The notes beneath the pieces are model-generated. The model did no database searches and had not been told where the DNA came from. It worked only from the letters and a program-made list of their open reading frames with translations. Source: Pelagibacteraceae bacterium AG-430-P08 (GTDB taxonomy: Bacteria > Pseudomonadota > Alphaproteobacteria > Pelagibacterales > Pelagibacteraceae). Taken from it: a stretch of 54,940 nucleotides of DNA. The stretch lies in contig QCOL01000006.1 of NCBI GenBank assembly GCA_003212925.1, positions 1 to 54,940 on the forward strand, written 5' to 3'. This document shows positions 4,540-54,940 of the stretch, piece after piece; position 1 is the first letter of the stretch; each line of letters starts with the position of its first letter. The translations under genes and the position numbers were made by a program.

Positions 4540-4670
4540 TGAAAAAAGAAAATCTTCCCTCTAAAATCTGTATTGTTTGTAAAAGACCTTTTATTTGGCG
4601 TAAGAAATGGAAATTGAATTGGGAAAAAGTTAAATATTGCTCAAAAAGATGTTCTAGTAAAAAAGTATGA
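4539..4670 (+). CDS. DUF2256 zinc-ribbon-like small protein
   Basis: A 43-residue protein with a GTG start that shares the last base of the photolyase stop (TAGTG). It has the DUF2256 signature: [14 protein letters not shown] at 11-24, then VKYCSKRC at 31-38. Cys11/14 and Cys34/38 form an obvious zinc-binding quartet. From memory, DUF2256 genes are often beside photolyase-related genes, as here. Its stop overlaps the next gene (ATGA). The role is unknown; a nucleic-acid or accessory role linked to the photolyase is a guess from context. Confidence 0.85.
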
Positions 4671-5200
4671 ACCTAGGAAAGTACAAATGGAAAAGTAGAA
4701 TTTTACTTGTTTCTACAACGAGTTATAAGGATAGAATTTATCTAGAAGCCAAAAAAATATATCAAGATAAAATAAAAGATTTTCATAAAAGATTTGTAAA
4801 ATTAATTTGTAAAATTAATAAGCAGGAAAAAACATCAATTGATTTAATTGGTTTTGACGGCAAATCCAAAAAGAAGATGAATAAACTTAATTATAAAACA
4901 ATTTTTAAAATTATAGATAAAATGCCATTAAGTAAAAAAACCAAACCTATAAATTTATCGCTTTATTCGGATTACAATCCTAAAACCACTACTCAAGGTT
5001 TGGGGTTTAAAAACAAGGAAAAAGCTCTTTACACAATTAAAATTATTAAAAATCGTCCAATTAAGTATCAGGTGAATGTAATCGCAACAATGCTAGGTAG
5101 AGCAAAGAACCATCCTAATAAAACTGTGGATATGGAGGATGCTATAAAAATTTTTAGTAGTTGGATGAAAAAATATAAAAGTAAAAAAAATGAAAATTAA
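4667..5200 (+). CDS. DUF4174-like protein with C-terminal extension
   Basis: A 177-residue basic protein. The first 100 residues match the DUF4174 pattern: an N-terminal [10 protein letters not shown] strand, a central helix, then [13 protein letters not shown] and a FKIIDKMPL segment (equivalent to the IDAMPMR end of that family). The usual MPMR is weakened to MPLS. About 75 further residues ([15 protein letters not shown]..., then [14 protein letters not shown]) are an extension I do not recognise. There is no clear signal peptide. It overlaps DUF2256 by 4 bases and the FG-GAP gene by 11, so it belongs to the photolyase transcript. Function unknown. Confidence 0.6.
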
Positions 5201-9746: not shown

Positions 9747-10934
9747 TTATAAATATCTCAGTTTTTTCTTGTGATAGTTAATAAATCTTTCAACATTAGA
9801 TTTATTAAATGTTTTATTTTCTTCAAAAGAAACTTTTTTCATTGAGTATGCATTACTTTTTGTAATTCTAGATTCAATAGTAATATTTCCTTTGTAAAGT
9901 TTAAGTTTTATTGACCCATTCACTTTATTTCTTTTTTGATCAATAATTTTTTGTAATTTAAATCTTTCTTTTGAGTACCAATAACCATTGTAAATCAGTT
10001 CGGCATATCTTGGCATAATTGAGTCTTTTTTGTGCATTGTTTCTTTATCTAATGTCACTGACTCAATAGCTCTATGGGCATGAATCAAAAGTGTTCCACC
10101 TGGTGTTTCATAAACTCCTCTTGATTTAATCCCAAGAAATCTATTTTCAACTAGGTCAACTCTTCCTATGCCATTTTTTCCTGCAATAAAATTTAATTTG
10201 GTAAGAATGTTTTCAGGATTTAATTTTTTTCCATTTATTCCAACAGGGTCACCATTCTTAAAATTAATTGAAATAAAAGTTGGTCTGTTCGGTGCTTTTT
10301 CAGGAGAGGTTGTTCTTTGGAAAATAAATTCTGGAGCTGAATTTTTTGGGTTCTCTAAAATTTTGCCCTCAGTTGATGTATGAAATAAATTATCGTCAAC
10401 AGAAAAAGGGGGTGCGCCCTTTTTATCTTTTGGGATGGGTATCTTATGTTTTTTTGCATAATTTATTAAATCGCTTCTAGATTTTAATTTCCAAATTCTC
10501 CAAGGAGCAACAACTTTTATCTTTGGGCCAAAATAGTGATAGCCTAACTCAAATCTGACCTGATCATTACCTTTTCCGGTCGCTCCATGAGATACTGCGT
10601 ATGCTTTAAATTTTTTTGCTATTCTTATTTGGTCTTTTGCGATTAATGGTCTTGCTATGGAAGTTCCTAATAAATAAACTCCCTCATAAATCGCATTACC
10701 TCTTATCATAGGAAAAACATAATCTTTTACAAAAAGATTTTTTAAATCTTTAATTATTATCTTTTTAACACCAAATTTTTTAGCATTATTGATTATTTTT
10801 TTTCGATTAATCTCTTGGCCTATATCAGCAGTGTAACAAATGACTTCAGCATTATAATTTTCTTGAAGCCATTTTAGAATTATAGATGTATCTAAGCCAC
10901 CTGAATAAGCAAGCACAATTTTTTTTTTGGACAT
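9747..10934 (-). CDS. argG: Argininosuccinate synthase
   Basis: A 395-residue cytoplasmic enzyme that condenses citrulline and aspartate with ATP to argininosuccinate in arginine synthesis. The N-type PP-loop AYSGGLDTS is at 9-17, the citrulline/aspartate region SHGATGKGNDQVRFE at 115-129, and family motifs SVDDNLFHTSTEG and YETPGGTLL follow. Length is normal for the family. The gene starts one base after the stop of the oxygenase-like gene, so it may be read from a minus-strand transcript beginning near 13151. argH is not in the window. Confidence 0.97.
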   Translation of the reverse strand: MSKKKIVLAYSGGLDTSIILKWLQENYNAEVICYTADIGQEINRKKIINNAKKFGVKKIIIKDLKNLFVKDYVFPMIRGNAIYEGVYLLGTSIARPLIAKDQIRIAKKFKAYAVSHGATGKGNDQVRFELGYHYFGPKIKVVAPWRIWKLKSRSDLINYAKKHKIPIPKDKKGAPPFSVDDNLFHTSTEGKILENPKNSAPEFIFQRTTSPEKAPNRPTFISINFKNGDPVGINGKKLNPENILTKLNFIAGKNGIGRVDLVENRFLGIKSRGVYETPGGTLLIHAHRAIESVTLDKETMHKKDSIMPRYAELIYNGYWYSKERFKLQKIIDQKRNKVNGSIKLKLYKGNITIESRITKSNAYSMKKVSFEENKTFNKSNVERFINYHKKKLRYL

Positions 10935-10935
10935 T

Positions 10936-11601
10936 TTAATCTCTAAGATTAACAGTTAAGTTTGCAGAGATAATCACTCTCTCTTTATCACCAGAGTAGG
11001 GTTTAGATCCGTGATAAAGAAAACTAGGCCATACTAAAAGTCGACCTTCTTTTGCAGTGAATAAATGAGTATCTTCTCTAAGATACTTTGAACCAAAATC
11101 ATTTTTTGACGTAGCGTTATAGGGCCTTATAAAATAGGTAGAACCATTTTGGATTGAAGCATCTGCACCCACTTGAACATAATAAACACATGACCAACTA
11201 AATCCATCATGATGATGTGGATAAACAATGCCGCCTTTATTGTATCTTATAAACCAAGACTCGTTAATATTCACATTATATTTTTTTTCTTCCTCGTTTA
11301 GTTTATCTATAAATTTTTGATTTGTTATTTTACTCACATCCAGAACTGATTTTGCAATAAAGTGAAAAAGTTTTTTTAATATTTCACTTTTTTCATTATG
11401 TAAGTCATAATTACTTTGATAAAGATTATGATTTCCAACATGATCTTTATCTCTTAATTGACTATTTCCATCAGGTAATTTTTTTTCATATAGTTCGAAA
11501 AAATTTAATAATTCCTCTTTTATTTGTGGATGATTATCATTTTGAAAATCTCCGATATTTAAGGGCCATAAACTATGAATATTTTTTACATCATCGCTCA
11601 T
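10936..11601 (-). CDS. Putative 2OG-Fe(II) oxygenase, TIGR02466-like
   Basis: A 221-residue protein with a double-stranded beta-helix pattern of the small putative 2-oxoglutarate/Fe(II) oxygenases found in marine bacteria and phages. The likely iron site is YPHHHDGFSW (His129-Asp132) with the distal His197 in LYHGSKPY, and Arg208 in ERVIISANLTV is placed to hold the co-substrate. SCVYYVQ and RLLVWPSFLYHG are typical strands. The substrate is unknown. It sits 1 base before argG and 6 bases after the IalB-like gene, so the run is an operon by spacing. Confidence 0.72.
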   Translation of the reverse strand: MSDDVKNIHSLWPLNIGDFQNDNHPQIKEELLNFFELYEKKLPDGNSQLRDKDHVGNHNLYQSNYDLHNEKSEILKKLFHFIAKSVLDVSKITNQKFIDKLNEEEKKYNVNINESWFIRYNKGGIVYPHHHDGFSWSCVYYVQVGADASIQNGSTYFIRPYNATSKNDFGSKYLREDTHLFTAKEGRLLVWPSFLYHGSKPYSGDKERVIISANLTVNLRD

Positions 11602-11607
11602 TTAAAT

Positions 11608-12120
11608 TTATGCACAACTTTTTTTTGCTAAATTATAAGCTTTAGTAAATCCTAGAAGAGAATAATGATCAATGGTTTGAGATCCTTTTTCGTTATATCC
11701 GGTAACCATAATTCTAGATCCTTTTTTCATAACTTTAACCATAATATTTTCTTTTTTATTACTAGTCATCCAGGCGAAACCTTGTTGTTTAAGGTCAAAT
11801 TTGAATTTGTTATTTCCAGATGTTGCTAAAACGGTATTATTTTTATTAAATTCATATCCAGCAGTTGCACTAATTTCGTTAGTAATTTTTTCATTAGGTC
11901 TAAAGGTGACAAATAATCTTGCATCTCTTTTATCATTTTTAGGTGCTTGTAAAACTGGTGTCGATTGAGCAAAACATATTTTACCTGATGCTTCTGAGAT
12001 TACTAAAACTTCCCAATCTTTAAATTTTCCAACTTTTTTTAAGTTTTCTGCATAACTTTTCGATAGTGAGATAAATAAAATAATTAATGACAAATAAAAA
12101 ATTTTTTTAATTATGGACAT
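11608..12120 (-). CDS. IalB-like secreted protein
   Basis: A 170-residue protein with a signal peptide (FYLSLIILFISLSKSYA, cleavage near 24) and the layout of the invasion-associated locus B family: a KDWEVLV strand early on, KICFAQS with a conserved Cys, F(V)TFRP, then a GFTKAYNLAKKSC end carrying a second Cys, probably disulfide-bonded. In free-living alphaproteobacteria this family is common and the invasion name is historical. Its start overlaps the end of the aldo/keto reductase gene by 10 bases. Function is unknown. Confidence 0.75.
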   Translation of the reverse strand: MSIIKKIFYLSLIILFISLSKSYAENLKKVGKFKDWEVLVISEASGKICFAQSTPVLQAPKNDKRDARLFVTFRPNEKITNEISATAGYEFNKNNTVLATSGNNKFKFDLKQQGFAWMTSNKKENIMVKVMKKGSRIMVTGYNEKGSQTIDHYSLLGFTKAYNLAKKSCA

Positions 12121-20092: not shown

Positions 20093-21245
20093 ATGAATTT
20101 AAAAGATTGTCACAATTTTAGTGATTTTAGAAAATTAGCTCAAAAAAGGTTACCATCGCCAATCTTTCATTATATTGATGGTGCAGCAGATGATGAAGTT
20201 ACATATGCTAGGAATACTAGTGCATTCGACGATGTGGATTTAGTTCCTAATGTTTTGAGAGGAGTTGAAGAAGTCGACCTGTCTACTACGATATTTGGAA
20301 AAAAATTAGATTTACCTTTTTATTTATCACCAACAGCTTTACAGAGACTTTTTCATTACGATGGAGAAAGAGCGGTTGGAAAAGCTGCAAAAAAAATTTA
20401 ATACAATGTTTGGTGTTTCTGCTTTAGCTACAGTAAGCGTTGAGGAAATTTCTTCAATGATTGATACACCTAAAATGTTTCAATTTTATTTTCATAAAGA
20501 TAGAGGTCTAAACGACTCTTGTTTAGAAAGAGCTAAAGCAGCAAATTTTGATGTGATGGCATTAACAGTTGATACTATTACTGGAGGAAATAGAGAGAGA
20601 GACTTAAGAACAGGATTTACCTCTCCACCAAAGTTAACTTTAGCAAGTTTATATAGTTTTGCTACTAAACCGATGTGGGGAATTAATTATCTAACAAAAG
20701 GTAAGTTTGAATTACCTCATTTACAAGATTTTGTGAAAGAAGGTACCGATGTTAACTCATCAATTGGAAATTATTTTTCAACTATGCTGGATCAATCTAT
20801 GAATTGGAAAGATGCTGAAAATCTTTGTTCTAAATGGGGAGGTCATTTCGCTCTCAAAGGAATTATGAGTGTTGAAGATGCAAAAAGAGCAGTAGATATA
20901 GGATGTACAGGTATAATGGTATCAAATCATGGCGGAAGACAGTTAGATGGATCTAGAGCGCCTTTTGATCAACTTGCAGAAATTGTTGATGCAGTTGGTG
21001 ATAAATTAGATGTCATTTGTGAAGGTGGAATTCATAGAGGTACTCATATGCTTAAAGCATTATCATTAGGTGCTAAGGCTTGTTCAGGTGGAAGATTATA
21101 TCTTTATGCTTTAGCAGCTGGAGGTCAAGCAGGTGTCGAAAGAGCTTTAGAAAAATATAAAGCTGAACTAGTGCGTGATATGAAACTTATGGGGTGCACC
21201 AAGATTAGTGATCTAAATAGAAGTAATTTAAGATTCAGAAAATAG
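20093..21245 (+). pseudogene. FMN alpha-hydroxy-acid dehydrogenase, frameshifted copy 1
   Basis: Together two ORFs make a full-length (about 383 codons) homologue of the L-lactate dehydrogenase/glycolate oxidase family, close to the gene that follows. The first frame ends at TAA just after a run of eight A (20389-20396); removing one A joins AVGKAAK with KFNTMFGVSALATVSVEE, matching the paralogue's RAAEKFGTFYSMSTMANNTIEE. FMN and substrate motifs are otherwise intact (FHYIDGAADDE; SNHGGRQLDGSRAPFDQ with the catalytic His), with no further stops. It may be a recent pseudogene, a base-calling error or slippage at A8. The ATG at 20361 is not the true start. Confidence 0.85.
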
Positions 21246-22396
21246 TGGCTTTAAAAGATTGCTATAATTTTAATGATTTTAGAAATCTAGCAAAAAAAAA
21301 ACTTCCTGCACCGATTTTTCATTATATTGACGGCGGTGCCGATGATGAGATGACCTTAAAAAGAAACACTGAAGCTTTTAACCAATGTGATTTAGTTCCA
21401 AATATCCTGGCAAGTGTTGGCAAGCCAGATTTATCAACCACCATATTTGGCAAAAAAATTGATATGCCAATTTTTTTATCTCCTTGTGCAATGCAAAGAT
21501 TATACCACCATGACGGAGACAAAGCTTCAGCTAGAGCAGCTGAAAAATTTGGAACTTTTTATAGTATGTCAACAATGGCAAACAATACTATAGAAGAGAT
21601 TTCAAATATTTCTGGTGGGCCAAAATTGTTTCAATTGTATGTGCACAAGGATCAATCAATAACAGATGATTTAATAGATAGATGTAAAAGATCAGGATTT
21701 AATGGAATGTGTTTAACTGTTGATACATTGGTTGCAGGAAATAGAGAAAGAGATCATAGAACCGGATTTACAACACCACCTAAATTGACTTTGCAAAGTT
21801 TAATGAGTTTTGCATCACATCCTAGTTGGGTTTTTAATTATTTAACACATGGAAAATTTAAACTAGCTAATGTGGCATCAAAGACTGATAAAGGGACTAA
21901 CATCACTAAATCTGTTATAGAATATATTAATGAGCAATATGATCCTTCAATGAATTGGAAAGATGCAGAGTACTGCGTTAAAAAATGGAATGGTCCTTTT
22001 GCATTAAAAGGAGTCATGAGTGTTGATGACGCAAAAAGAGCAATTGATATTGGTTGCACTGCAATTATGATTTCAAATCATGGAGGTCGTCAGCTGGATG
22101 GATCTCGATCACCCTTTGATCAAATTAAAGCAATTTCAGATGCAGTTGGAGATAAGCTGGAAATAATCCTAGACGGTGGAGTAAGGAGAGGGACACACGT
22201 CCTAAAAGCCTTAGCAGCTGGAGCAAAAGCCTGTAGTTTTGGAAAAATATTCTTGTTCTCTTTAGCCGCAGGTGGACAGCAAGGAGTTGAGCATTTATTG
22301 AGAAACATGCACGATGAGATAAATAGAAATATGGTATTAATGGGTTGTAAAAATTTAAAAGAGTTGAATAGTTCAAAATTAATTTATAGAAATTAG
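21245..22396 (+). CDS. FMN-dependent alpha-hydroxy-acid dehydrogenase (LldD-like), intact copy 2
   Basis: A 383-residue FMN TIM-barrel enzyme that oxidises an (S)-2-hydroxy acid to the 2-oxo acid. It shows Tyr27 in FHYIDGG, Lys255 in FALKGVMS, and the catalytic His279 and Arg282 in SNHGGRQLDG. C-terminal DGGVRRGTHVLKAL binds the FMN phosphate. L-lactate, glycolate and mandelate dehydrogenases cannot be told apart by eye. GTG start overlaps the last base of copy 1. The pair is a tandem duplication in a cluster with other hydroxy/oxo-acid enzymes and a TRAP importer. Confidence 0.88.
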   Translation: MALKDCYNFNDFRNLAKKKLPAPIFHYIDGGADDEMTLKRNTEAFNQCDLVPNILASVGKPDLSTTIFGKKIDMPIFLSPCAMQRLYHHDGDKASARAAEKFGTFYSMSTMANNTIEEISNISGGPKLFQLYVHKDQSITDDLIDRCKRSGFNGMCLTVDTLVAGNRERDHRTGFTTPPKLTLQSLMSFASHPSWVFNYLTHGKFKLANVASKTDKGTNITKSVIEYINEQYDPSMNWKDAEYCVKKWNGPFALKGVMSVDDAKRAIDIGCTAIMISNHGGRQLDGSRSPFDQIKAISDAVGDKLEIILDGGVRRGTHVLKALAAGAKACSFGKIFLFSLAAGGQQGVEHLLRNMHDEINRNMVLMGCKNLKELNSSKLIYRN

Positions 22397-34897: not shown

Positions 34898-34995
34898 TGG
34901 CAGTTTCCGCAAAAACATTAAATTTGCGGTGTCTTTGGAAACAAAGAGATCGACACTAGTCAGCGAGGGTTCGCCCACTAGTGCGATTACTGCTG
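34898..34995 (+). ncRNA. Structured RNA leader upstream of ffh
   Basis: Four helices can be drawn by eye. P1 TGGCAGT (34898-34904) pairs with ACTGCTG (34989-34995), using two G-U pairs that exist only in plus-strand RNA. P2 CCGCAAA / TTTGCGG spans 34907-34929. P3 is TGTC / GACA (34930-34933 / 34952-34955) around TTTG-GAAA-CAAA with a GNRA loop. P4 CTAGT / ACTAG (34956-34960 / 34977-34981) encloses GGG-TTCG-CCC. The result is a closed four-way junction ending 11 bases before the ffh ATG. It may be a cis-regulator or a separate RNA. I recall a report of an ffh-associated motif in Pelagibacter but cannot confirm it. It lacks the SRP RNA GGAAGGAAGCAGCC-type core. Confidence 0.65.
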
Positions 34996-45496: not shown

Positions 45497-46602
45497 AAAG
45501 TTATCCAATAGCTAAATCAAGAAGAGTGAGAAGTACTCCGTATACTTCAAGAATTGAAAATCAAGGTGTGACTGCCTACACAGTATATAATCATATGCTG
45601 TTACCAGCAGCATTTGGATCTTTAGAAGAATCCTGTGATCATTTAAAAAAAAATGTTCAAGTATGGGATGTATCAGCAGAAAGACAGGTTGAAATTTCAG
45701 GCGATGATGCAGCCAAACTTGTTCAACTTATGACCTGTAGAGATTTATCCAATTCCAAAATTGGCAGATGTTATTATTGCCCAATAATTGATGAAAGCGG
45801 AAATTTAGTAAATGATCCAGTTATTTTAAAGCTAGCTGACGATAGATGGTGGATCTCAATTGCTGACTCTGATGTTATTTTTTTTGCAAAAGGATTAGCA
45901 TCAGGCAATAAATTCAATGTAAATATTTTTGAACCTAATGTTGACATCCTAGCAATTCAAGGACCCAAATCTTTTGATTTGATGGAAAAAATTTTTGGTA
46001 AGGAGATAAAAGAGTTAAAATTTTTTGGATTTAATTATTATGATTATAAGGGTGTAAAACATTTAATTGCTAGATCTGGTTGGTCAAAACAAGGAGGTTT
46101 TGAGATCTATGTTGAAAATACTAAATCCGGATTAGATTTATATGATCAACTCTTTGTATTAGGAAAAGAATTCAATGTAAAAGCCGGATGTCCAAATTTA
46201 ATTGAAAGAATAGAAAGTGGTTTACTTTCTTATGGAAACGATTTTGACAATAATGATAATCCATTTGAATGTGGTTTTGAAAAGTATGTAAATCTAGATA
46301 CAGATATAGATTTCTTAGGTAAGGAAAAATTGAAAAAGATTCAAAAAGACGGGATCAAAAGAAAATTAATGGGTGTTCAGATTGATATTAGTAAAATTAA
46401 TTTAACTAAATCTCTTAATATTAAAGATGAAAAAGGAAATTTAATTGGGGATTTAAGATCTGCCTGTTATTCACCTCATTTTAAAAAGTCTATAGGTATT
46501 GCGATGATAAATGAGCCACATTGTAAAGCATCCGCTTCAGGATTATTGGAAATTGATGGAAATTTAATAGCTGTAAAAGTTTGCGATTTACCTTTCATCT
46601 AG
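45493..46602 (+). CDS. dmdA: Dimethylsulfoniopropionate demethylase DmdA
   Basis: A 369-residue GcvT-family protein, the same length as I recall for Pelagibacter DmdA. Strong DmdA-like stretches are [15 protein letters not shown] near 29-43, [16 protein letters not shown] near 55-70, [19 protein letters not shown] near 80-98 and [20 protein letters not shown]. DmdA moves a methyl from DMSP to tetrahydrofolate, giving methylmercaptopropionate. Neighbouring dmdC- and dmdB-like genes support the call. Other GcvT-like demethylases are the main alternative. Confidence 0.85.
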
Positions 46603-47999: not shown

Positions 48000-48323
48000 A
48001 TGATTAGTGCGACTAAAAAATGGATTTTTTTAAAGATCAGTGGAGTTTTGCTAGTGCCATTGATGACATGGTTTATTTTAAATTTCACAATGATTTATGA
48101 TAAAGAATACTTAAATTTAATAGAATTTTTTACAATGCCTTTATCTAAATTTTTATTTAGTATTTTTATAATAAATGCTTATTTTTTTTCAGCTTTAAGT
48201 ATAAGTGAGGTTTTTGAGGATTATATTAAAAATGATAAAATCAAAAGTGTCGCAAATAAGCTTTTATATGCATCAGCGGTAGTAATTCCTCTAATTACAA
48301 TTATATTAATCTCTAGCTTATGA
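48000..48323 (+). CDS. sdhD: Succinate dehydrogenase membrane anchor subunit
   Basis: A 107-residue protein with three hydrophobic helices (about 11-30, 45-67 and 84-105). The sequence is divergent, as is usual for SdhD, and the expected heme-ligand HxxxGxxxxxxDY signature is changed: the second helix has [18 protein letters not shown], with the Asp-Tyr pair but no His at the usual place. Identity rests mostly on position between sdhC and sdhA; the two flank with 1-base gap and 4-base overlap. Confidence 0.88.
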
Positions 48324-50095
48324 GTTTATATAAAATAGTCGATCATGAATATGACGTAGTAGTCCTAGGTGCTGGTGGTTCTGGCTTAAGAGCAGCTGTT
48401 GGTTTAAGTGAAGCAGGATTAAAAACTGCATGTATTTCAAAAGTATTTCCAACAAGAAGTCATACTTCTGCTGCGCAAGGTGGAATTTCAGCTGCCCTTG
48501 GAAACATGGGCGAAGACGATTGGCGTTGGCATATGTATGATACTGTAAAAGGAGCAGATTGGTTAGGAGACCAAGATAGTATCGAGTACCTTTGCAAAGA
48601 AGCCCCTAAGGCAGTTATAGAATTGGAAAAATATGGTGTCCCATTTAGCAGAACAGAGGATGGCAAAATTTATCAAAGACCTTTTGGTGGTATGACCAAA
48701 AATTATGGAAATGGAATAGTTCAAAGAACATGTGCTGCAGCTGATCGAACAGGACACGCAATTTTGCACACTCTATATGGTCAAGCTTTAAAACATAAGA
48801 CAGAGTTTTTTATTGAGTATTTTGCTCTCGATCTTTTAATGAAAGATGGGGAATGTAAAGGATTGATAGCATGGAATTTAAATGATGGAACCATTCATCG
48901 ATTTAGATCTCATATTGTTATTATAGCTACAGGTGGCTATGGAAAAGTTTACTATTCTGCAACATCTGCTCATACATGTACTGGTGATGGAAATGCAATG
49001 GTGCTAAGAGCAGGTCTACCGTTACAAGACATGGAGTTTGTACAATTTCATCCAACCGGAATTTATGGACACGGCACCTTAATAACAGAAGGTGCGAGAG
49101 GTGAAGGAGGTTATCTTACAAATTCTAAAGGTGAAAGATTTATGGAAAGATACGCGCCTAAAGCTAAGGATTTAGCATCACGTGATGTTGTAAGTAGGTC
49201 AATGTCAATTGAAATTAATGAAGGAAGAGGAGTTGGAAAAGATCAAGATCATGTTCATTTGAACTTAAGTCATCTAGATAAAGAAATTATAGAAAGTAGA
49301 TTGCCAGGTATTACAGATGCAGCAAGATTATTTGCCAATGTAGATGTTACTAAGGAGCCAATTCCAGTTGTACCTACAGTTCATTATAACATGGGTGGTA
49401 TACCAACAAATTATAAAGCAGAAGTTTTGACTGTAAATGGTTCTGAAAAAACTGTCCCAGGACTTATGGCTATAGGGGAAGCAGCTTGTGTTTCAGTTCA
49501 TGGAGCAAATAGATTAGGGTCTAACTCTTTAATTGATCTAGTTGTTTTTGGAAGAGCAGCTGCAAAAAGAGCTGCTGAACTAATTAAACCTGGTACACCA
49601 CATGAAGAGATTAGTGAGTCAGAAACTCAAAAATGTTTAGATCGTTTTGATAAGATTAGAAACTCTGATGGAGATATTGGTACTGCTGAACTAAGACTGT
49701 CCATGCAAAAAACAATGCAATCAAAATGTGCAGTTTTTAGAACAGAGAAAACACTTAAAGAGGGTGTTGATGAAATACGACAAACATTTGATGGATTGGA
49801 CTCTTTATCGGTTAAAGATAAATCATTAATATTTAATACCGACCTAGTAGAAACTTTAGAATTCGATAATTTGATTAGACAAGCTGTTGTGACAGTTGAC
49901 TCAGCTTATAATAGGAAAGAAAGCAGAGGAGCTCATGCTAGAGAAGATTATCCAAAAAGAGATGACGAGAAGTTTATGCAACATACATTAGCTTGGTGTG
50001 ATGGAAAAAAATCAAAAATAAGTTATAGAGATGTTCATAAGTCTACGTTAACCAATGAAGTACAGTATTTTCCACCTCAGGAAAGAGTATATTAA
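48320..50095 (+). CDS. sdhA: Succinate dehydrogenase flavoprotein subunit
   Basis: A 591-residue flavoprotein oxidising succinate to fumarate. The FAD Rossmann motif is [13 protein letters not shown] at 14-26, His48 in [11 protein letters not shown] is the covalent FAD site, and active-site residues lie in [22 protein letters not shown] and [10 protein letters not shown]. The C-terminal [19 protein letters not shown] is typical. It starts within the sdhD stop and its own stop touches the sdhB start. Confidence 0.98.
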
Positions 50096-50874
50096 TGGTG
50101 CAAATCAGTTTACCTGAGAATTCCAAAACAAAAAAAGGTAAATATTTTAAGGACAAAACTGGCTCAAAAAATTTAAGAAAAGTTAATGTATATAGATGGG
50201 ATCCATCATCAGGAGAAGGTCCGAGAATAGACACATATGAGGTCGATATGGATGACTGCCCATCTAAAGTATTAGATATTTTAAATAAAATTAAAAATGA
50301 GATAGACCCCACTCTTGCTTACAGACGATCATGTGCTCACGGTGTATGTGGATCCTGTGCAATGAACATGGGTGGCAAAAATGGTCTTGCTTGCACAACT
50401 CCTCATGAAAATATTGATGGAGATATTGATATTTATCCGTTGCCACACTTAAAAGTTAAAAAAGACCTAATCGGAGATTTAGATGGATTATACAAGCAAT
50501 ATAAATCCATTGAGCCATGGTTAAAATCGAGTTCAAAATCTGAGTCAGCTGAATTAATTCAGTCAAAAGAAGATAGAGCTAAGCTTGATGGTGCTTATGA
50601 ATGTATTATGTGTGCTTGTTGTTCTACTTCTTGCCCAAGTTATTGGTGGAATGGAGATAAGTATTTAGGACCAGCAGTTTTATTACAAGCTTATAGATGG
50701 ATTATCGATAGTAGAGATGAGGAAAGACAAGCTAGATTAAAAAAAGTAGCTGATGAACTTAAATTGTATCGTTGTCATACTATTTTGAACTGTACTAGTG
50801 CATGCCCTAAAGGCTTAAACCCTGCAAAGGCAATTGCTGAAATAAAGAAAATGTTAGCAACAGCCAATATTTAA
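50095..50874 (+). CDS. sdhB: Succinate dehydrogenase iron-sulfur subunit
   Basis: A 259-residue protein carrying three clusters: 2Fe-2S ligands in [17 protein letters not shown] plus a later Cys in LACTT, 4Fe-4S in [16 protein letters not shown], and 3Fe-4S in [17 protein letters not shown]. It passes electrons from SdhA to ubiquinone. Its start shares a base with the sdhA stop, and 42 bases separate it from the mmsA/ampG chimera. Confidence 0.98.
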
Positions 50875-50916: not shown

Positions 50917-52896
50917 ATGAAATTAATTGAACATTTTGTAGGTGGAAAGATAATTCCCGGAAGTTCAGATAAAAAAGGAAAAGTTTTTAACCCCGCTACT
51001 GGTGAACAGGAAAAGCAAGTAAGACTTGCCTCCTCTAGTGATTTAGATCAAGCAGTAGAGATTGCAAAAAAAGCTTTTGAGACATGGTCATTAAAACCTT
51101 CACTCCAAAGAGCAAGGATAATGTTTAAATTTAAAGAGTTGATTGAAAAAAATTCTGATGAATTGACACAATTAATTGTTTCTGAACACGGAAAAGTTTA
51201 TGAGGATGCAAAAGGTTCATTAACACGAGGATTAGAAGTTGTAGAATTTGCTTGTGGAATTCCACATTTACTTAAAGGAGAATTTTCAGAAAATGTAGGG
51301 ACAGATGTTGACAGCTGGTCAATGCGTCAACCACTAGGTGTTGTTGCCGGTATAACACCATTTAATTTTCCAGCTATGGTTCCGATGTGGATGTTTCCAA
51401 TTGCTATTGCATGTGGAAATACATTTATATTAAAGCCATCAGAAAAAGATCCCTCTTGTGCAATAAGATTAGCAGAATTATTGAAAGAAGCCGGTCTTCC
51501 AGACGGTGTATTTAATGTGGTAAATGGAGACAAAGAAGCAGTAGATGCAATTTTAAATAACAAAGATATTAAAGCAGTTAGTTTTGTTGGTTCGACTCCT
51601 ATAGCTAAATATATTTATGAAAATTCAGCAAAAAATGAAAAAAGAGTTCAGGCATTAGGAGGAGCTAAAAATCATTTAGTAGTGATGCCAGACTGCGATT
51701 TAGATGGTGCAGTTTATGCTTTTAATTATTTGTGGGCACCTTTAATAGATAGAATACAAATACCATATTTAACAAAAAAAATAGGTCACAGAAGAGGATG
51801 GATTGTTTTGATGCAAATTATCATCTTACTCTCACTCGCTCTTTGGAGTTTACTCAATCCATCTGAAAATTTAGCTTTAGTTGTTTCAGTAGGCTTAATA
51901 ATTGCTATAGCATCATCAACACAAGATATAACTGTTGATGCTTTAAGAATTGAACAGATTGGTGAGAATGAGGGAAAATCCATGGCTGCTGGAGCCGCAA
52001 TGGCGGTTGTCGGTTGGTGGACAGGATACAAGTTAGGTGGAGTACTATCATTATTTGCAGCAGATATTCTACAAAACATTGGTTTTGAAAATTATTGGCA
52101 ATTAACTTTCTTAATTTTGGGGATTTTAGTAATTTTAATGAACATTGGCTTAATGTTCATTGACGAGTCTGGAAATTTAGAGAGACAAAATCAACAAAAA
52201 GAAAATGATAAATTGATATCATCTCAATTTAAAAAAGAAAATATATTTACAAAATTGATAACCTGGGTTGCTGGAACAATTAGTGGTCCAATCATTAGTT
52301 TTTTTAAAAAAAATAGCTTTTCGATTGCTCTAGGAATTTTAGGATTTGTTTTTTTATTTAAAGTGGGGGAGGCATTTCTTGGAAGGATGTCTATAATTTT
52401 TTATAAAGAAATAGGTTTTAGTAAGTCGGATATCGCTATTTACTCTAAAACGTTAGGTTGGATCACTACTGTGACGTTTACTCTTTTAGGTGGACTTTTT
52501 GTAATAAGATCCGGGGTTTTAAAAGCAATGTTTTTTGCTGGAGTAATGATGGCAAGCACAAACCTTTTATTTAGTGTGTTGGCCTGGAGCGATAAATCAG
52601 AATTTTTATTTGCTATTGCAGTTATTTTTGACGATATAGCTGCTGCATTTGCAACAGTAGCTTTTGTAGCTTTTATATCTATGCTCGTAGACAGGGCCTA
52701 TACAGCAACTCAATATGCGCTCTTAGCGTCGATAGGCACTGCTGGTAGAACAACTTTAGCCTCCTCCTCTGGCGCCCTTGTTGATTGGTTAAATGGTGAT
52801 TGGGGAATATTTTTTATTTTGACTGCACTAATGGTCATTCCTTCATTAATAATCCTATGGATTATGAAAAACAAACTACAACTAAGTGAAAAATAA
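50917..52896 (+). CDS. Chimeric ORF: truncated methylmalonate-semialdehyde dehydrogenase fused to truncated AmpG permease
   Basis: One 659-codon frame joins two unrelated proteins. Residues 1 to about 265 are MmsA (VGGKIIPGSSDKKGKVFNPATG, GVVAGITPFNFPAMVPMWM, FILKPSEKDPSC, VSFVGSTPIAKYIY, GGAKNHLVVMPDCDLDGAV). They stop before the catalytic-Cys loop, so this half should be inactive. From about 267 it is AmpG-type MFS muropeptide permease (YAFNYLWAPLIDR, IGHRRGWIVLMQ, SSTQDITVDALRIE) lacking the first helix or so, then about ten helices. The junction is near 51708-51722. It may be a true deletion fusion or an assembly/amplification chimera. Confidence 0.85.
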   Translation: MKLIEHFVGGKIIPGSSDKKGKVFNPATGEQEKQVRLASSSDLDQAVEIAKKAFETWSLKPSLQRARIMFKFKELIEKNSDELTQLIVSEHGKVYEDAKGSLTRGLEVVEFACGIPHLLKGEFSENVGTDVDSWSMRQPLGVVAGITPFNFPAMVPMWMFPIAIACGNTFILKPSEKDPSCAIRLAELLKEAGLPDGVFNVVNGDKEAVDAILNNKDIKAVSFVGSTPIAKYIYENSAKNEKRVQALGGAKNHLVVMPDCDLDGAVYAFNYLWAPLIDRIQIPYLTKKIGHRRGWIVLMQIIILLSLALWSLLNPSENLALVVSVGLIIAIASSTQDITVDALRIEQIGENEGKSMAAGAAMAVVGWWTGYKLGGVLSLFAADILQNIGFENYWQLTFLILGILVILMNIGLMFIDESGNLERQNQQKENDKLISSQFKKENIFTKLITWVAGTISGPIISFFKKNSFSIALGILGFVFLFKVGEAFLGRMSIIFYKEIGFSKSDIAIYSKTLGWITTVTFTLLGGLFVIRSGVLKAMFFAGVMMASTNLLFSVLAWSDKSEFLFAIAVIFDDIAAAFATVAFVAFISMLVDRAYTATQYALLASIGTAGRTTLASSSGALVDWLNGDWGIFFILTALMVIPSLIILWIMKNKLQLSEK

Positions 52897-53638
52897 TTTT
52901 TTAAATAAATCTGTAGCTAACATTTACTTTAAACCATCTTCTAATTCTGAGGTAGTTTCACAAATTTTATATGGAGAGAAATTTAAGATTCTATTGAAAA
53001 GAAAAAAATATATAAAAATAAAAACTCATTATGATAATTATATTGGATATATAAAAAAAGATAAGTTTTTAGAAAATTTTAAACCCTCACATAAAATTTC
53101 AAAAATTAAATCTAGAATTTTCCTTAAAAGAGGTAAAAAATTTTTGTCTTCAAACCATTATCTATATTATGGCTCTGGTGTTTGTAAACGAAATGAAAAT
53201 AAAAGATATATAGAATTTGAAAAAAATAAATGGATCAAAAAAACTGATGTCAAAAATATTGATCATCATGAAAAAAATTATATCAAAATATTCAAATTTT
53301 TTTTAAACACAAAATACTTATGGGGCGGAAAAACTTGTGATGGAATTGATTGTTCAGCATTAATTCAAATCTATTTTTATTACAATAGAATATTTTTTCC
53401 AAGAGATACAAAAGATCAAATAAGATTTTGTAAAAGAAAAAGAGGTAGAAATCAGCTTAAAGGGGACATCGTATTTTGGAAAGGACATGTTGGTATATGT
53501 CTAAATAAGTCTAGATTTATTCATGCTTATGGACCAAAAAAGAAGGTTTTAATGATGCCAACAGTACAAACAATTAAATTAATTGATAAAACCGCAAATC
53601 TGAAAGTTAAAAAAGTAAGTAATATTATTAATATTTAA
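52886..53638 (+). CDS. NlpC/P60-family cell-wall endopeptidase with SH3-like N-terminus
   Basis: A 250-residue very basic protein. Residues 1-125 look like two bacterial SH3 repeats (VANIYFKPSSNSEVVSQILYGE, YIGYIKKDKFL). The C-terminal half is NlpC/P60 with the catalytic Cys156 in CDGIDCSALIQ, His201 in FWKGHVGICL and His213 in FIHAYGPKKKV. Such enzymes cut gamma-D-Glu-diaminopimelate links. No signal peptide is evident, so it may act on cytoplasmic muropeptides, which suits its overlap (11 bases) with the AmpG part upstream. Confidence 0.85.
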   Translation: MKNNFLNKSVANIYFKPSSNSEVVSQILYGEKFKILLKRKKYIKIKTHYDNYIGYIKKDKFLENFKPSHKISKIKSRIFLKRGKKFLSSNHYLYYGSGVCKRNENKRYIEFEKNKWIKKTDVKNIDHHEKNYIKIFKFFLNTKYLWGGKTCDGIDCSALIQIYFYYNRIFFPRDTKDQIRFCKRKRGRNQLKGDIVFWKGHVGICLNKSRFIHAYGPKKKVLMMPTVQTIKLIDKTANLKVKKVSNIINI

Positions 53639-54531
53639 TCTCTACCAAAGTCAGGTTTGTTTACATCCTGTTTTAATTTAATAATTTTAGACCTAACTTT
53701 TTTAGTCTGAGATAGTTTTTTTAAAATTGATCTATTATTTTTAGAATTTATATCTTTTTTGAAAGATTTTAAGTTTTTGATAAATAAGTCTATAGCTTTT
53801 GTAACATTAACCCTGTTATCAAAAAAAATATCTCTCCACATAATTTCATTTGAAGCGGCTATTCTTGAAAAATCTCTCAACCCCCCAGCACTGTATTTGA
53901 TAAGCCCAAATTTGAGTATTTTTTCAAAATCTTGAGCCGATTTAACCAAATTATAGGCAATTAAATGTGGTAAATGACTTGTGATAGAAAAAACTTTGTC
54001 ATGTTTTTCAGAGTTCATAATAACAGTTTTTGAGCCCATCTTTTTCCAAAAAGAAATTAAAAATTTTAAATTCTTAGAACTTGTTTTTTTATCCTTAATT
54101 AATACACACCATTTATCCTCAAACATATCAGCTTTTCCAAATTCTGGTCCACTCACCTCTGATCCAGCAATAGGATGACTCCTAATCCAATTAATACCTC
54201 GCTTCAAAAATTTTTTAATTATTTTTGATGACTCTATTTTTGAAGATCCCACATCAGTAATCAGTGTCTTTGGTGAAATAGTTTTATTAATTTTAAGAAT
54301 AATTTTTTTATATTCACTCGTTGATGTACAAACAATCACTAAGTTTGAATTTACCAAACCATCTTTAAGAGACTTTACAATTGTCCCAGGTAATCTAAGA
54401 CTTTTTATTTTAGCGATATTAGATTTTGATTTTTCATAAATAAATATTTTTTTTGCTATTTTTTTTTTTGAAATCCTCCTTACTAAAGAGGAGCCTAATA
54501 ACCCACAGCCTATAATTAATATATTTCTCAT
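53635..54531 (-). CDS. tyrA: Prephenate/arogenate dehydrogenase (TyrA-like)
   Basis: A 298-residue NAD(P)-dependent enzyme of tyrosine synthesis. The Rossmann turn is IIGCGLLGSSLVRRI at 6-20, TDVGSSK at about 92-98, RSHPIAGSEVSGPEF follows with the catalytic-site His, and SITSHLPHLIAYNLV and KYSAGGLRDFSRIAASN complete the dehydrogenase domain. The product may be arogenate- or prephenate-specific. Its start overlaps the hisC-like gene by 4 bases, an aromatic-amino-acid pairing typical of alphaproteobacteria. Confidence 0.92.
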   Translation of the reverse strand: MRNILIIGCGLLGSSLVRRISKKKIAKKIFIYEKSKSNIAKIKSLRLPGTIVKSLKDGLVNSNLVIVCTSTSEYKKIILKINKTISPKTLITDVGSSKIESSKIIKKFLKRGINWIRSHPIAGSEVSGPEFGKADMFEDKWCVLIKDKKTSSKNLKFLISFWKKMGSKTVIMNSEKHDKVFSITSHLPHLIAYNLVKSAQDFEKILKFGLIKYSAGGLRDFSRIAASNEIMWRDIFFDNRVNVTKAIDLFIKNLKSFKKDINSKNNRSILKKLSQTKKVRSKIIKLKQDVNKPDFGRD

Positions 54532-54940
54532 TTTCTAAATATATTTTGTGTTGCTTTGATAAATTTCATATTTTCCTCTTTTGACCCTATCGTTAATCGT
54601 AGCATATTTTTTATTTTATAACCTTCTTCAGTAGACCTTAAAATAATTCCCTTTTTTTTTAATTTTTCATAGAAATTATTAGCTCTTAGTTTGCATTTAT
54701 TAAAATTCAATAATAGAAAATTAGCAGAAACTTTATTTGAGCTAATATCATAATTGCTCAAAAAATTTTTCAGTTTTGTTGCATAAATATGATTATGTTT
54801 TACTGAACGTGAAATAAATTTTTTATCCTTAAGTGACTCAATAGCTGCTTTTTGGGCTACTTCATTAACATTGAATGGAGGTTTAATAACATTCAAAGCA
54901 TCAATAATTTTTTTTGAACCATATCCCCAACCAATTCTTA
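54528..54940 (-). CDS. hisC: Histidinol-phosphate/aromatic aminotransferase, C-terminal part
   Basis: The frame is open to the window edge, so the start lies beyond 54940. The visible 137 residues begin RIGWGYGSKKIIDAL, the segment after the PLP lysine in HisC-type enzymes, then NVIKPPFNVNEVAQKAA, FLLLNF, and the C-terminal NMLRLTIGSKEENMKFI holding the substrate-carboxylate Arg. A TTG at 54896 is not the true start. Next to tyrA it could serve both imidazole and aromatic amino acids. Confidence 0.88.
   Translation of the reverse strand, partial: RIGWGYGSKKIIDALNVIKPPFNVNEVAQKAAIESLKDKKFISRSVKHNHIYATKLKNFLSNYDISSNKVSANFLLLNFNKCKLRANNFYEKLKKKGIILRSTEEGYKIKNMLRLTIGSKEENMKFIKATQNIFRK

Follow-up and report, generated by a model that had tools for sequence, protein, structure and literature searches.

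The 659-codon open reading frame on the plus strand at positions 50917-52896 of the window, by which we mean the whole 54,940-nucleotide stretch of Pelagibacteraceae bacterium AG-430-P08 analysed here, is very probably a chimera formed during phi29 multiple displacement amplification (MDA) and not a gene fusion. It joins the start of mmsA, encoding methylmalonate-semialdehyde dehydrogenase, to the end of the muropeptide permease gene ampG. In the living cell the two most likely remain separate genes, each complete and pointing towards the other; a claim of a new protein is not warranted. Five observations taken together point to this reading: 1) the join is inverted; 2) the bases shared at the break form a short word; 3) the join was seen once, among the matches listed; 4) the native continuations of both pieces are missing from the assembly; and 5) a gap of exactly 200 bases separates the end of the window from its neighboring contig.

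Two truncated genes in one open frame

In profile searches the methylmalonate-semialdehyde dehydrogenase model TIGR01722 aligns to residues 4-266 of the predicted 659-residue product (profile positions 1-263 of 477), and the AmpG model TIGR00901 to residues 265-649 (profile positions 49-416 of 417, with positions 1-48 absent). The Pfam matches, Aldedh at 16-268 and MFS_1 with its best stretch at 272-471, agree with this division. The scores of 387.3 bits for TIGR01722 and 317.7 bits for TIGR00901 lie under the respective curated cut-offs of 448.5 and 350, as expected of truncated copies. As reference for most alignments we used the genome AG-447-P22 (G067), which has intact frames for both genes, an MmsA of 497 residues and an AmpG open frame of 477. 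Against these, the MmsA half ends 15 residues ahead of the GERC-motif cysteine (residue C281 of G067), the catalytic residue in this family, and the AmpG half begins at residue 83 of the open frame, or residue 53 counted from the first methionine (the predicted start), without the first hydrophobic peak. Thus neither the full length and catalytic cysteine required of a methylmalonate-semialdehyde dehydrogenase nor the complete membrane segments required of AmpG are present in the fused frame. A first-pass annotation, made from the letters of the window, had placed a switch from MmsA to AmpG near residue 266, with a dehydrogenase half stopping short of its cysteine loop and a permease half lacking its first helix; the comparisons bear out all three points. 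A functional bifunctional protein, in effect a membrane-tethered dehydrogenase selected as such, would account for a frame open over 659 codons, but it would have to work without the GERC cysteine, the rest of the MmsA C-terminal part and the first AmpG hydrophobic peak, and it was not seen in the relatives examined, among the matches listed; we regard it as scarcely conceivable.

Features around the junction, in window coordinates
Feature	Position	Strand	Remarks
Native upstream neighbors of mmsA, sdhD-/sdhA-/sdhB-like	48000..50874	+	Collinear with relatives up to 51713; gene names presumed from the translations
mmsA 5' part (methylmalonate-semialdehyde dehydrogenase)	50917..51713	+	Covers residues 1-266 (full length about 497 in G067); lacks the C-terminal part with the GERC cysteine
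Junction, TGCAGT	51708..51713		Bases aligning to both sides
ampG 3' part (MFS muropeptide permease)	51708..52896	+	Open-frame residue 83 to the natural stop; TIGR00901
Native downstream neighbors of ampG: NlpC/P60 protein, prephenate dehydrogenase	52886..54940 (contig end)		Pfam

Orientation of the parent genes in relatives

The two sides of the break align to contig 4 of G067 on different strands: window positions 17039-51713 match its minus strand with 96.2% identity, ending at 74895, and positions 51708-54940 match its plus strand with 97.9% identity, starting at 45555. The nearest known counterparts are the separate SAR11 mmsA (TIGR01722) and ampG (TIGR00901) genes, from which each half differs in being truncated at the junction. 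The same contrast of strands across the break recurs in nine other genomes (G065, G063, G064, G061, G072, G068, G075, G074 and G012), and the inverted join spans 29.3 kb in G067, G063, G064 and G061 and 33.7 kb in G065. The stretch from 51708 to 54940 is a single collinear block in these last five genomes; as the neighbors of ampG also follow it in relatives, the window has one breakpoint here.

The arrangement of the parent genes was surveyed in two sets of genomes. The first comprised 60 relatives and AG-430-P08 itself; 57 of the 60 gave a match at an E-value of 1e-40, and the fused pair was found in AG-430-P08 only and in none of the 60 relatives. One contig carries both genes in 15 same-genus genomes, and in all 15 they are separate and convergent on opposite strands, 29-36 kb apart; the mmsA frame is 501-513 codons long and the ampG frame 459-488. 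The second set comprised 17 genomes, 16 of them reached through the 80 loci described below and titled Pelagibacteraceae or Pelagibacterales, and the junction was found in none of the 17. All nine further relatives with both genes on one contig again have them separate and convergent, 28-34 kb apart; four others have the genes on different contigs, G062, G070 and G071 gave AmpG only and G014 MmsA only. Intact MmsA is present in 13 of the 16 relatives of this set, plus G014. The short MmsA match of G013 ends at a contig end, and a short AmpG frame in G402 likewise has a contig end nearby. Taken together, 24 of 24 relatives with one-contig pairs have the two genes separate and convergent, 28-36 kb apart, so that the separate, full-length genes which the first-pass annotation had proposed looking for in related SAR11 genomes are indeed there. 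Genomes from the order's other family did not show the pair close together: G037 has both genes on one strand with about 283 kb between them, and elsewhere they fall on different contigs or one of them has no match.

We also searched 397 genomes of the family, including AG-430-P08, with a 100-residue stretch as junction query, and 385 of them gave a match (the 60-, 17- and 397-genome surveys partly overlap, G172 and G067 for example standing for the same place). The query retrieved its own genome at 1.4e-65 and the best of the other 396 at 2.0e-32. Among the matches listed, which extend down to 1.5e-26, every one after its own covers just query residues 43-45 to 99-100, with no sign of the join in the 396 other genomes, and the best 80 of 509 confirmed loci, 80 of 80, cover only residues from 45-46 on. 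The genomes covered by these junction surveys were relatives from other strains. Two loci recovered in the family, L230 in G384 and L231 in G105, have long AmpG open frames of 575 and 599 residues with extra internal hydrophobic stretches. We considered them as possible further fusions and rejected this, as by eye they carry internal insertions without a foreign partner; they look like natural length variants.

Since the native genes lie on opposite strands in the relatives, the window joins opposite strands, which a deletion cannot do. The first-pass annotation had left two readings side by side, a chimera from assembly or single-cell amplification and a real deletion leaving the mmsA start fused to the ampG end; the former is supported, and a simple deletion is ruled out by a join inverted relative to 24 of 24 relatives. 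The in-frame ORF would suit a deletion, but besides the convergent orientation of the parents most of the intervening DNA is retained on three contigs of the same assembly (C22, C31 and C24). A deletion fusion is therefore refuted unless the lineage had first inverted the region, and we give it almost no credence. Further, an inverted join places convergent parents on one strand, and one third of such joins fall in frame; hence the open frame is no evidence of function and, with one inverted join in three in frame, it would need no special explanation. The strand and distance of both parents in relatives can thus tell inverted joins from deletion fusions without recourse to reads.

The break and the missing native sequence

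The assembly of AG-430-P08 comprises 39 contigs, 1.017 Mb in all, and is 83.8% complete. Most of the mmsA-ampG interval is found on C24, C31 and C22, each of which falls inside the breakpoints when mapped to G067 and likewise to G065. Two stretches are absent from the assembly, one of 2.84 kb including the 3' part of mmsA and one of 17.8 kb including the 5' part of ampG, and these are the native continuations of the two joined pieces. With both of them absent an assembler would have no alternative path and could run through a chimera without a fork. Second copies of mmsA or ampG were not found in the assembly, which holds only three aldehyde dehydrogenase paralogs of 28-33% identity. The gap between the right end of the window and C24 is exactly 200 bases in G067 and also in G065. 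The workflow of the Single Cell Genomics Center (SCGC) removes 100 bases from each contig end (PMC5519541), and such trimming of two contigs that once met end to end would leave a gap of 200 bases. The remaining two gaps between neighboring contigs of the interval measure 399 and 3403 bases and are uninformative.

Six bases at the break, TGCAGT, align to both the mmsA side and the ampG side. Of 14 mmsA sequences compared at this position, nine read GCTGTGAATGG and five read GCAGT[G/A]AATGG; put differently, nine read GGTGCTGTG or similar and share TGC with ampG, and five carry GCAGT, two of these as TGCAGT. The ampG parents mostly read TTTGCAGTTTA. The word shared with the closest mmsA parents is thus 3 nt (TGC); a lost mmsA codon GCA, the one found in the five sequences, would lengthen it to 5-6 nt. 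The 14-base microhomology proposed in the first-pass annotation did not hold up: the stretch in question, GTTTATGCTTTTAA, is AmpG sequence, and the mmsA sequences examined do not have it. In 200,000 random inverted joins drawn in G067, a shared word of at least 3 nt arose in 7.9% and one of at least 6 nt in 0.4%.

The k-mers of de Bruijn assemblers are far longer than 6 nt, the most that is shared at this break, and no run of N marks the join. Both points speak against the assembler alone having joined unrelated pieces with no chimeric molecule behind them. Misassemblies are known in single-cell assemblies (PMC6122165, PMC11247762), but we hold an origin of this kind to be very improbable.

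More weight, although it too is unlikely, belongs to a real inversion that spans about 29 kb in the cell or its lineage, with breakpoints in mmsA and ampG and the fused ORF as a by-product. It fits the geometry of the join; with 96.2% and 97.9% nucleotide identity to G067, the two sides are compatible with one organism, and a span of 29 kb is unusual for MDA. The reciprocal junction of such an inversion, joining the 3' part of mmsA to the 5' part of ampG, would fall in sequence missing from the assembly; neither half was found in the 83.8% present, and its absence neither contradicts an inversion nor discriminates between the readings. On the other hand, the 396 other family genomes gave no hint of the join among the matches listed, all 24 relatives with a one-contig pair agree in gene order and orientation, and an inversion would cost the cell both genes at once. 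Homologous recombination needs more than 3-6 nt, and the word shared here is too short for it. That a wild SAR11 cell carried a true inversion of about 29 kb, formed via 3-6 bases of homology and breaking mmsA and ampG together, is likewise improbable; it would be a case of ongoing illegitimate rearrangement in a streamlined genome with an otherwise conserved local gene order.

Amplification as the probable source of the join

Among the best 80 of the 509 loci from relatives, 78 belong to records with names of the single-cell type, the exceptions being L086 and L099; the word MAG appears in 29 of the 80 titles, 27 of which also have names of that type. We infer that the assembly of AG-430-P08, too, comes from a single cell amplified by MDA and that amplification, not the cell, gave rise to the event. 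In the MDA of one SAR11 cell by phi29 polymerase, a 3' end displaced within mmsA probably paired over 3-6 bases with an ampG-bearing strand, about 29 kb off and in the opposite orientation. Its extension would have yielded an inverted join of the mmsA start with the ampG end, and, with the genuine continuation of either gene probably underamplified, the assembler would have met no competing path and run through the chimera.

The join resembles the chimeras described from the MDA of one E. coli cell by Lasken and Stockwell (2007; PMC1855051) in three respects: 1) the second segment is inverted relative to the native genome, as were 406 of the 475 chimeras reported there, phi29 mispriming yielding mainly inverted joins made through a few bases. 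2) It has a short shared word at the junction, complementarity of at least 2 bases having been present in 76.8% of the chimeras; the known range is often 2-21 nt with a peak at about 6, and a re-analysis of MDA data likewise gives a peak at 6 nt, with most words of 5-8 (PMC4595205). 3) It is seen in one assembly only, among the matches listed. It differs in the distance between the segments, about 29 kb here against the usual <10 kb, which is a common and not an obligatory trait: Table 1 of the same study places 337 of the 406 inverted chimeras under 10 kb and 69 over 10 kb, with complementarity in just 34.8% of the latter (PMC1855051). Against an MDA origin we count the long span of about 29 kb, the fact that a 3-nt word is reached at random in 7.9% of draws, the length of 200 bases in only one of the three gaps between interval contigs, the word MAG in 29 of the 80 titles, and the outcome of the following control.

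In about 0.71 Mb aligned to G067 (12 stretches from 10 other assemblies, 0.77 Mb fetched) we found no inverted blocks of >600 bp and >72% identity, on contigs chosen for carrying these genes, a choice that leans towards unbroken ones. The SCGC benchmark gives 1.5 misassemblies per 100 kb (PMC6122165, PMC11247762), a rate that would put about 0.8 in a window as long as this one and about 15 in a genome, and the small P. marinus genome is reported to have done better (PMC5519541). In light of the control, the true rate here is probably lower than that of the benchmark; one misassembly in a 1-Mb genome would nonetheless be unremarkable. SAR11 single-cell genomes can hold in-frame chimeric ORFs that resemble gene fusions and enter protein databases, and caution is in order.

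Several other features of the window were observed in passing. An FMN-dependent dehydrogenase gene (PF01070) at 20093-21245 is split into overlapping frames at 20093-20401 and 20361-21245 by a single one-base gap relative to all five aligned relatives, lying in a run of A in the alignment with G061; either an indel of sequencing or amplification or a real frameshift could be responsible. It belongs to a pair of adjoining FMN-dependent dehydrogenase paralogs (PF01070) at 20093-22396, which give off-diagonal matches to relatives of 65.6-67.4% identity. Two short stretches, 4545-5167 and 10932-11619, have no match at that place in G065 and carry a DUF4174 protein and a putative 2OG-Fe(II) oxygenase. 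At 34939-34992 the window matches the Rfam family RF01793 (ffh sRNA), scoring 54.4 bits where the gathering score is 35.
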